From positions 1 to 11,550 of the forward strand of contig WJIO01000130.1 in NCBI GenBank assembly GCA_014730235.1: a DNA stretch of 11,550 bases, given 5' to 3'. The notes under the pieces are model-generated. The model made no database searches. It was given only the letters and a program-made list of their open reading frames with translations, and was not told the origin of the DNA. This document shows, piece by piece, positions 1,488 through 10,719 of this stretch (within the stretch, counting starts at the first letter, position 1; each line of letters starts with the position of its first letter). The DNA is from Candidatus Poribacteria bacterium. GTDB taxonomy: Bacteria > Poribacteria > DTPJ01 > WJIO01. Made by a program: the position numbers and the translations under genes.

Positions 1488-1507
1488 ATCTAAGCAGGAG
1501 GCTATGG

Positions 1508-1555
1508 ATGCAAATGCTTCCATGGCTTTCTGATACAATAAAGTATCTTTTTTAA
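1508..1555 (+). CDS. Possible 15-residue leader peptide
   Basis: ATG at 1508 lies 6 bases after AGGAGG (1496-1501), a perfect ribosome site. The frame reads MQMLPWLSDTIKYLF and stops at TAA 1553-1555. It overlaps RNA arms 2 and 3 described for 1496-1590, so a ribosome translating it would change which hairpins form. An ATG at 1504 would give only nine residues and sits too close to the ribosome site. The coding claim rests on the ribosome site and placement alone. Confidence 0.3.
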   Translation: MQMLPWLSDTIKYLF

Positions 1556-1590
1556 AGCCATGGGAGTCAATCTTCTCATGGCTTTTTGCT
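1554..1590 (+). terminator. Probable intrinsic terminator (arm 3:4 hairpin)
   Basis: Stem 1554-1565 with 1574-1585 (12 pairs, one G-U), loop 1566-1573, and a T-rich tail TTTTTGCTTT ending at 1592. The first T residues overlap the stem base. Stopping here would give a short RNA and leave out the 69-codon gene that starts 40 bases further on. Confidence 0.55.
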
Positions 1591-2720: not shown

Positions 2721-3854
2721 ATGCCCACCAACGAAGAAAAACAGCAGGTATGGCAGGCTTATCACCAGCGGAAACCTGTCAGAGTTCCGGTAACTTATGG
2801 TGCCAATCCCAGAACAGTTTTGTTTAACAGTGATCTTAATCCCAACAATATTTCCTTTGAAGAGTATTTTACAGATGCAGAAGCTTTGGTGGAAATTCAG
2901 CTCAGGTTCATGGAATACCGAACCCAGGTCCTCAACAAATACTGCGACAGCCCGGTAGGACGACCTGAAGAACTGGCTTTTTATGTAGACAATCAAAATT
3001 CCTACGACTCCCTGTATTTTGGCACACCCATCGAATTCAGAGAAGGTCAGGTCGCTGATACTACTCCTATACTAAGCGGCAATAAGAAAAACGATATATT
3101 CCAGATAGATATAGATAATCCTCTGGAAAATCCCTTTGTAATGCAGACCCTTAAACGTTACGAAGAAATAAAAAAAGTGGTAGATTCTCTATCTTATCAT
3201 GGCATGACTTTCAGCGTTCAGCCGCCTATTTTTGGCTTTGATGGCCATCTCACCATTTCTACATGCCTGCGGGGAGGTGAATTATATTCCGACATATATG
3301 AAGACCCGGAATACTTTCATCACCTAATGAGTTTTATCCATGAAGCCGTAATAATACGCAATAAAGCCATTGCTGAATACTTCGGACAAAAGGCTTTCAA
3401 TGGAAATCACGGGGGGTTGGCGGATGATTCAATCCAACTTGTTTCCATTGATACATACAAAAAGATGATCTTACCATATCACCGAAGATGGTATGCCCTA
3501 TGGTCCGAAGAAGGCCCTCATGGAATGCACCTGTGCGGCGATGCGACCAGGCATTTTCCCATAATAAAGGAAGAGCTAAACGTAAACAGCTTTGATACTG
3601 GTTATCCGGTTAATCATAAATGGTTGAGGGAAACTCTTGGACCTGATGTCCAGATACATGGAGGCCCGGAAGCCTCGCTTTTGCTTAACGGTACACCAGA
3701 GCAGGTATATAAGCGAACAAAGGAAATACTCCAATCAGGAATAATGGAAGGTGGTCGCTTCATCCTTAGGGATGCCAATAATCTACCGCCAAACTGCCCC
3801 GAAGAAAACCTGGCTGCCATGTATAATTGCTGCCTGGAATATGGAAATTATTAA
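2721..3854 (+). CDS. Uroporphyrinogen decarboxylase (URO-D) superfamily protein, non-heme type
   Basis: A 377-residue TIM-barrel protein. The start is ATG 2721, 8 bases after GGAG; the frame is open further upstream from a TTG at 2586, but that extension is low-complexity basic sequence with no ribosome site. Family marks include ADDS (234-237) in the position of the usual E/D-D motif, 'HLCGD' (270-274), 'HGGPEASLLLNGTPEQV' (313-329) and the 'GGRFILRDANNLPPNCPEENL' type C-terminus (344-364). H270-x-C272 matches the first two zinc ligands of corrinoid:CoM methyltransferases (MtaA/MtbA). The Cys expected in their 'SPGC' segment is replaced (RDAN), although C359 lies nearby. The N-terminal 'RQAGRY' signature of true heme-pathway UroD is missing, so a role in heme synthesis is unlikely. 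Plausible roles are methyl transfer or another small-molecule reaction; no corrinoid protein is seen nearby. It is likely the first gene of the run to 8550. Confidence 0.85.
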   Translation: MPTNEEKQQVWQAYHQRKPVRVPVTYGANPRTVLFNSDLNPNNISFEEYFTDAEALVEIQLRFMEYRTQVLNKYCDSPVGRPEELAFYVDNQNSYDSLYFGTPIEFREGQVADTTPILSGNKKNDIFQIDIDNPLENPFVMQTLKRYEEIKKVVDSLSYHGMTFSVQPPIFGFDGHLTISTCLRGGELYSDIYEDPEYFHHLMSFIHEAVIIRNKAIAEYFGQKAFNGNHGGLADDSIQLVSIDTYKKMILPYHRRWYALWSEEGPHGMHLCGDATRHFPIIKEELNVNSFDTGYPVNHKWLRETLGPDVQIHGGPEASLLLNGTPEQVYKRTKEILQSGIMEGGRFILRDANNLPPNCPEENLAAMYNCCLEYGNY

Positions 3855-8769: not shown

Positions 8770-9524
8770 ATGTTATACAATAAAAATTTGTTTTTCATCG
8801 GATTTTTGCTGCTTGTTTTGTTTGTTAATCTAACAGAAGCTCAACAGGTCGTTACAGATGGCCTTTTGGTTTACCTGACGTTCAACGAAAGCGATATTGA
8901 CGGTGAAGAGGTTATGGATGTATTTGGTGAGAATCACGGCATTATAATAGGAAACGCCGTAATAGTTGAAGGTAAGTATGGCACAGCCCTGGAATTTGAC
9001 GGCGCAGCGGCCTATGTGGAAGTCCCTCATACTGATGATATGGAAGTGATGTGGGAAACCCATACAATGGAAGCCTGGATTTACCAGATCGAATCCCGCA
9101 GCAGCAGGATACTTGATAAAATAACTGCCGGAACTGCTGACGGTCCCCATCTTGACACCCATCCGGGAACAACCCTTCGCACATGCGCCGGAACTGTGTT
9201 TCTTCCGGAATTGATTATTCCCTGGAAGAATGGACTCATGTAGCTGTGACTTTTAACGAGGGAGTAATTAAGCTCTATATAAACGGTTCTGTTGAAGGTG
9301 AAGATGAAGTAGCATCACCCCTCGCGGGAAACGAACACTCAATAAAAGTCGCCGCAGACAGCGCAGGTCAAAACTTATTCCGGGGAATAATTGACGAAGT
9401 TCGTATCTATGGAAGAGCGTTGACAGAAGATGAAATTATGCAAAACATGAACGCTGAAGGTCTTGCGGTAAAACCAGAGGATAATCTGGTTTCTTTATGG
9501 TCTGTGGTTAAGACTTCCGAATAA
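8770..9524 (+). pseudogene. Secreted LamG-domain protein, frameshifted
   Basis: The first frame (8770-9243) encodes a Sec signal peptide: K5, a hydrophobic core 7-19 and likely cleavage after A24 (TEA-QQ). A LamG/concanavalin-like fold follows: 'GLLVYLTFNE', 'ALEFDGAAAYVEVPH', 'HTMEAWIYQ'. It then loses the family pattern and stops at TAG 9241. The rest of the domain ('LEEWTHVAVTFNEG', 'KLYINGS', 'RGIIDEVRIYGRALTEDEI') continues one base earlier in register to 9524. Restoring one T at about 9195 would give G-T-C-V-S-S-G and a single protein of about 251 residues. Such proteins usually bind or process extracellular glycans. This is either a decayed gene, an on/off variant or an assembly error. 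The ribosome site AAGGAG is 6 bases before the ATG. Confidence 0.8.
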
Positions 9525-9624: not shown

Positions 9625-10719
9625 ATGGATACAATGACGAGTATAGAACGAATGAGCAATATCCTCCAGAGAAAGCCTGTTGATCGTATTGCGCTAAACG
9701 AAAGCTACTGGGGTGAAACAGTAGCCCGATGGCGTAATGAAGGTCATCTTAAAGAAAACGAATCACCCCATGAGCACTTTGGATATGATTACTCTCAGGG
9801 TGGATGGCCCAACGTCGCGGCAGATCCCGAATATTCCGGTGAAACCCTGGACGAAACAGACGAATGGCGTCTTGTTCGCAATGCAAACGGTGCCCATCTG
9901 AAATGGTGGAAACACAAGGCCGGAACTCCGGAACACGTGTTTTTTGAGGTGCAGGATAGATCAGGATGGGAAGAGCAGATAAGGCCAAAACTCACAGACG
10001 ATAATCTCTTGAGAAAACGCATAAATGTAGAAGGCTATAAAAACGGTCTGAAAAGTTCACATGATAAAGACCTTTTCTTCTTCATCAACGGTGTAAATGT
10101 GTTTGAATGTATACATCCGGTATGCGGTCATGAGTATATGCTGATCGGAATGGCTCTGGATCCCGATTGGGTTCGGGATATGTGCAACGTATACGCAGAA
10201 CTTATAATCAAATGCTACGAAATCCTGATCTCTGAAGGCGGCGTACCTGACGGCGTTTTCTTTTATGAGGATATGGGTTTCAAAGCCAAACCTTTTATGT
10301 CACCCAGGATGTATAAAGAGATAGTCTGGCCTGCCCACAAAAAGACCTTCGATTTTGCCCACAGCTACGACCTGCCGGTAGTTATTCATTCATGTGGATA
10401 TGTTGAACCGCTGGTTCCCGGTCTTATCGAAGCCGGAATGGACTGCTTGCAGGCTATGGAAGTCAAAGCAGGAATGGACCTGGTTCAGCTAAAGCGTGAT
10501 TATGGTGACAAAATTGCCTTCTGTGGAGGTTTGGATGTAAGGGTTCTTGAAACAAATGATCTGGATAAAGTGGAAGAAGAGCTACAAAAAAAACTGCCCA
10601 TAGCTATGGAAGGCAGCGGCTACATACTCCACAGCGATCACAGTATCCCCAATACGGTGGACTACGAAACATATAAGTATTTCGTCAAACGAGGTCTGGA
10701 AATTGGTACTTACAAATAA
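9625..10719 (+). CDS. Uroporphyrinogen decarboxylase (URO-D) superfamily protein, second copy
   Basis: A 364-residue TIM-barrel protein, only distantly similar to the one at 2721. It opens with the 'SIERMSNILQRKPVDRIAL' segment (6-24) typical of UroD-like methyltransferase relatives. Later come 'FFYEDMGFKAKPFMSPRMY' (212-230), 'VIHSCGYVEPLVPGLIEAG' (253-271) and 'FCGGLDVRVLE' (299-309). H255-x-C257 is the HxC pair that binds zinc in corrinoid methyltransferases. The later Cys of those enzymes is absent (LHSDHSIPN, 335-343), although C300 is near. The heme-pathway N-terminal signature is lacking. The start is fixed by AGGAG 6 bases before ATG 9625; a second ATG at 9634 is less well placed. It is followed within 23 bases by the isomerase-like gene, so they likely share a transcript and perhaps a catabolic pathway. 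Confidence 0.88.
   Translation: MDTMTSIERMSNILQRKPVDRIALNESYWGETVARWRNEGHLKENESPHEHFGYDYSQGGWPNVAADPEYSGETLDETDEWRLVRNANGAHLKWWKHKAGTPEHVFFEVQDRSGWEEQIRPKLTDDNLLRKRINVEGYKNGLKSSHDKDLFFFINGVNVFECIHPVCGHEYMLIGMALDPDWVRDMCNVYAELIIKCYEILISEGGVPDGVFFYEDMGFKAKPFMSPRMYKEIVWPAHKKTFDFAHSYDLPVVIHSCGYVEPLVPGLIEAGMDCLQAMEVKAGMDLVQLKRDYGDKIAFCGGLDVRVLETNDLDKVEEELQKKLPIAMEGSGYILHSDHSIPNTVDYETYKYFVKRGLEIGTYK

Follow-up and report, generated by a model that had tools for sequence, protein, structure and literature searches.

Amino-acid attenuators of the trp/his type combine four competing arms with a leader ORF, and in trpL the leader stop codon is located between arms 1 and 2. In E. coli pyrBI, a ribosome trailing the polymerase past a U-rich pause can cover a terminator arm; the leader ORF of pyrBI extends beyond the terminator, and the system has no antiterminator switch of the kind considered below. 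The B. subtilis vmlR leader is built from an anti-antiterminator with an upstream ORF (uORF), a pause hairpin bearing a T-rich motif, and a terminator, the pause hairpin being placed at the apex of the antiterminator (PMC9226507). The vmlR uORF, which encodes a tripeptide, lies in a bulge, and its ribosome site falls outside the hairpin (PMC9226507). In Sinorhizobium meliloti, a DUF1127 gene is subject to uORF-translation-dependent attenuation, which has been proposed to monitor ribosome availability (PMC12218461).

Here we describe a leader from Candidatus Poribacteria that appears to add a member to a known class of switches, placed before an orphan gene. The leader is found in a stretch of 11,550 nucleotides (contig WJIO01000130.1, hereafter ‘the window’, in whose positions all coordinates are given unless noted) from a genome of 5.5 Mb in 451 contigs. 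The gene that follows the leader has 69 codons and is monocistronic, with the upstream gene ending at 1022 and the downstream gene lying on the opposite strand. The features of the region are as follows.

1266-1294, + strand: second promoter-like site, TTGACA-17-TATTTT (consensus match only)
1321-1350, + strand: likely promoter, the best site, TTTACA-18-TATAAT, 11/12 (consensus match only)
1364-1368 and 1377-1487, + strand: GGAGG and predicted uORF1, 36 codons, MRLNMKTKSDLVKNNTFRQAFATQCRLSRFCVLYDI, spacing 8
1370-1452, + strand: possible 5′ domain, with hairpins 1371-1379:1423-1431 (9 bp) and 1433-1438:1447-1452 (6 bp)
1492-1507 with 1576-1591, + strand: helix 1:4, 16 bp, closing the antiterminator state
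1495-1508 with 1519-1532, + strand: helix 1:2, 14 bp, plus 1510-1511:1516-1517
1495-1532, + strand: hairpin 1:2, putative anti-antiterminator, -24.9 kcal/mol, including the uORF2 ribosome site and start codon
1508-1555, + strand: predicted uORF2, 15 codons, MQMLPWLSDTIKYLF, with GGAGG at 1497-1501
1516-1529 with 1554-1567, + strand: putative antiterminator 2:3, 14 bp, -24.4 kcal/mol including the apical hairpin
1532-1536:1543-1547, then TTTTTT at 1548-1553, + strand: pause-like hairpin at the apex of 2:3
1554-1566 with 1573-1585, + strand: helix 3:4, 13 bp, with a U-rich tail
1554-1590, + strand: intrinsic-terminator-like hairpin 3:4 and tail TTTTTGCTTTCT, by structure prediction
1631-1840, + strand: 69-codon gene, GTG start at 1631, GGAGG at 1618-1622

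Four arms in two near-equal states

In structure prediction, the leader forms a succession of three helices, mutually exclusive and ending in a putative intrinsic terminator. All three pairings drawn by hand in the initial annotation were found, each longer than drawn; the pairing of 1520-1529 with 1554-1563, given there as 10 bp, is present and runs to 14 bp. Helix 1:4 is a fourth pairing that the annotation had lacked. Its observation of a 15-codon ORF with a ribosome site overlapping the switch arms was borne out, the uORF2 start being six bases past AGGAGG (1496-1501), as was its view that this AGGAGG is hidden: it lies inside hairpin 1:2, within which the uORF2 ribosome site is buried. 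The stop codon of uORF2 (1553-1555) falls on arm 3, the 5′ arm of the terminator. Hairpin 3:4 is the top candidate among 14 terminator-like sites in the window, with a T tail that is imperfect, being interrupted by GC. When the full-length leader is folded, the two states are near-equal, with 1:2 and 3:4 together at -47.3 kcal/mol versus -47.5 kcal/mol for 2:3 together with 1:4.

Arms, balance and rarity were all obtained by computation, with dinucleotide shuffles used as the chance model for arm strength and the energy of the weakest helix over arm triples as the score, which is -21.3 at this site. This value was reached by none of 600 shuffles of the leader (1357-1630; best -11.4) and by none of 2000 shuffles of 1494-1590 (best -10.6). 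When 1.2 Mb of this genome was scanned on both strands, the site ranked first, and the second-ranked site consists of palindromic repeats without a T tail. The four-arm structure is a real and unusually strong two-state leader, beyond chance. The folding z-score of the leader (-5.5 to -6.8) was not counted as evidence, since low values are common upstream of genes in this genome (mean z of -3.8, sd 4.0, for its upstream intergenic regions).

Predicted promoter and uORFs, and folding of the growing transcript

A consensus scan of the + strand between 1351 and the 69-codon gene gave no promoter-like site, and the gap from the end of the terminator to the GGAGG of the gene is about 27 bases, so transcripts from the predicted promoters must read through the terminator. 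Three units of GGAGG and start codon (uORF1, uORF2 and the 69-codon gene), with spacings of 6-8, are found in the leader region. Across 2.4 million strand-bases, three such units fall within 255 bases only here and at one further place, in L038, and this rarity supports translation of uORF1 and uORF2, as far as can be judged from sequence. Neither uORF1 nor uORF2 contains a run of regulatory or stall codons.

Folding of nascent transcripts, begun at 1490 and without a ribosome, is dominated by 1:2 up to 1560, after which 2:3 is favored at about 1567-1572; the combination of 1:2 and 3:4 then dominates at 1582-1586, and both states are balanced at 1590. The effect of a ribosome was modeled by masking its footprint, a crude model in which outcomes vary with ribosome position and with the assumed footprint. 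For a ribosome masked at the uORF1 stop, the model prefers 2:3 in nascent transcripts as far as 1572, though not once equilibrium is reached. For one placed at the uORF2 start, 2:3 is preferred only with footprints that end by about 1517, and the terminator with those that end at 1520 or beyond. Masking over roughly codons 3-10 of uORF2 allows the terminator to form, and a standard footprint on most early uORF2 codons favors the terminator over the antiterminator. A ribosome masked at the uORF2 end covers arm 3, so that the terminator cannot form.

Proposed mechanism

We infer promoter use, termination, uORF translation, pausing, polarity and signal as follows. Transcription would begin near 1357, and hairpin 1:2 would be the first to form, acting as an anti-antiterminator. 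When arm 3 emerges, 1:2 and 2:3 would be near balance, and a pause of RNA polymerase is probable at the small hairpin and TTTTTT (1532-1553), a step proposed by analogy with vmlR. If 1:2 is kept, arms 3 and 4 would make the terminator and the transcript would end near 1590; if arm 1 is occupied and arm 2 is free, 2:3 would form and the gene would be expressed, with 1:4 backing 2:3 once arm 1 is released. The most likely agent would be a ribosome on uORF1 and uORF2. If it stops where uORF1 ends, or right at the beginning of uORF2, it would disturb arm 1 and favor 2:3; in the middle of uORF2, it would cover arm 2 and favor the terminator; and held at the end of uORF2, it would cover arm 3 and block the terminator. 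As ribosome position on the uORFs would set the switch, the gene would respond to ribosome stalling or to the translation state.

It is probable that the leader is a conditional terminator of some kind. To the narrower proposal, that it is a ribosome-sensing transcription attenuator with anti-antiterminator, antiterminator and terminator for the 69-codon gene, we give about an even chance. Points against it are the dissimilar leader of the ortholog (below), the lack of stall codons in both uORFs, the burial of the uORF2 ribosome site, the imperfect T tail, the dependence of the modeled outcome at the uORF2 start on the footprint assumed, and the preference for 2:3 at the uORF1 stop in nascent RNA only.

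Comparison with known systems

The likeness to vmlR is in the order of the parts: a short uORF whose ribosome site overlaps the first hairpin, as read from sequence only, and a predicted pause-like hairpin with a TTNTTT-type motif at the apex of the antiterminator, here at 1532-1553. The present leader differs in having a 15-codon uORF, a buried ribosome site, a stop codon on the terminator arm and an additional 36-codon uORF, and it also differs in phylum and in the gene controlled. With the S. meliloti DUF1127 leader it would have in common a small gene under uORF-dependent attenuation, whereas the mechanism there relies on C-rich codons early in the uORF (PMC12218461) and the one here would be a competing-hairpin switch; the 69-residue protein gave no match to DUF1127. 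What recalls pyrBI is the proposed cover of a terminator arm by a ribosome after a U-rich pause. Although four competing arms and a leader ORF are shared with trp/his-type attenuators, here there is no codon run, the stop is on arm 3, and the downstream gene is without a biosynthetic family match; amino-acid attenuators are less fitting than vmlR. The initial annotation had described mutually exclusive arms as in trp-type attenuation. The exclusive arms and the attenuation are well supported, but the trp type is not, because uORF2 has no codon run, its stop lies on arm 3, and masking with a standard footprint on most early codons favors the terminator.

In Rfam, no family, riboswitches and T-boxes included, reaches its gathering score, nor does any rise above threshold in a search at a relaxed E-value; the leader family His_leader (RF00514) has a weak score of 25.3 bits versus a gathering score of 49. 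At the level of gathering scores, this agrees with the annotation that no known riboswitch or T-box is present. Its further suggestion of an undescribed RNA regulator holds in so far as no Rfam family is matched, but not for the layout, which is that of the known vmlR kind. A limited literature search found no described RNA regulators in the phylum.

The 69-residue protein and its ortholog

The 69-residue protein is basic, with an acidic C-terminal end, and has no family match in Pfam, NCBIfam or PHROG. A PDB profile search gave weak matches only and an AlphaFold model was helical and of low confidence (pLDDT 70, pTM 0.33); both were set aside. Among 84 genomes of the phylum that were searched, the gene is present in two only. 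The ortholog, 45% identical, is from a genome in a different family of the same order (Candidatus Poribacteria metagenome-assembled genome, isolate SpSt-970, DTPJ01000203.1), and no further homologs were found in other GTDB contigs, viral contigs or plasmids.

The leader of the ortholog (L003) carries a promoter-like TTGACA-17-TATTGT about 170 bases upstream of the gene, with neither a terminator-like hairpin nor alignable arms. The initial annotation had held that a lack of conserved arms in relatives would count against its proposal, and in the leader of this sole relative no conservation of the arms is seen. Conservation would add support for a vmlR-like attenuator, but it does not strictly define one. 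Within 585-760 of L003, a 12-bp long-range helix is predicted, and 627-643 of L003 can pair alternatively with 715-722 or 737-746, beside the ribosome site. Since this leader can fold over the start region, different control is possible there, and structure prediction makes translational control a possible form of it. Within the window, a candidate shared motif at 1373-1403 gave many 20-27-base matches in a DNA search of the 84 phylum genomes, and was dropped as chance because the best of these are in unrelated contexts, apparently coding DNA.

Other features of the window were also noted. The palindrome GTCATTCCTGCGNNNGCAGGAATGAC at 1153-1178 has exact copies in many of the contigs sampled from this genome and resembles a short mobile element or an abundant palindromic repeat. 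A 334-residue protein encoded at 18-1022 has no Pfam or NCBIfam family match and contains DxNxDG-like stretches that look calcium-binding. URO-D family proteins are encoded at both 2721-3854 and 9625-10719, making two in one 11.5 kb window. At 8770-9524, two ORFs that are not in the same frame overlap. A match to the C-terminal half of a Laminin_G_3 domain was found for the second, and the first looks like the part absent from its beginning, which points to an apparent frameshift or assembly error.

Alternative explanations

The same terminator/antiterminator switch could also respond to a ligand bound to the 5′ domain (1357-1492) or to the arms, either a small molecule or the 69-residue protein. 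The leader would then be a riboswitch or autoregulatory, and the uORFs would be incidental. A basic product fits RNA binding, and several helices can form a small structure in the 5′ domain, but the z-score of that domain is only -2.4, weaker than the average upstream region of the genome, and it may be ordinary. Translation of uORF1 would, moreover, run through the 5′ domain, and the lack of an Rfam match at gathering score also speaks against a riboswitch. The complementarity of 1432-1441 to 1510-1519 (10 bp), which covers the uORF2 start codon, could join the 5′ domain to the loop of hairpin 1:2; it was matched in 30 of 300 shuffles (10%) and was dismissed as chance. Overall, we regard control by a ligand or by autoregulation as unlikely.

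A separate small RNA is a still less likely source of the hairpins, although the promoter-to-terminator unit of about 235 bases (about 1357-1590) would suit one, with the gene left unregulated and expressed through constitutive leakage or a start of its own. The distance from 1590 to the ribosome site at 1618 is too short for a normal promoter and holds nothing promoter-like, the 2:3 and 1:4 pairings would serve no need, and the ortholog likewise has its promoter-like site well upstream of the gene. It is very unlikely that the four arms pair by descent from a tandem-duplicated terminator hairpin and not through selection for switching. Arms 1 and 3, and arms 2 and 4, are each offset by exactly 56 bases, but at this distance the arms show identities of 7/14 and 11/14 and the loop 5/10, falling to 2/15 upstream and 5/18 downstream, so that no sign of a recent duplication is seen. 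In addition, the first hairpin has no terminator-like tail, and its arms still pair through G-U pairs.

Implications

Going further than the ribosome-sensing attenuator itself, one may speculate that the two-uORF leader controls a lineage-specific basic protein acting on ribosomes or RNA, and that the related lineage kept the gene while exchanging the terminator switch for another structured leader, a combination that we consider improbable. If the leader is a ribosome-sensing attenuator, transcription attenuators of the anti-antiterminator kind would extend to an uncultured phylum. An orphan small basic protein would then be under tight conditional control, which would offer a handle on its function, perhaps in translation stress.
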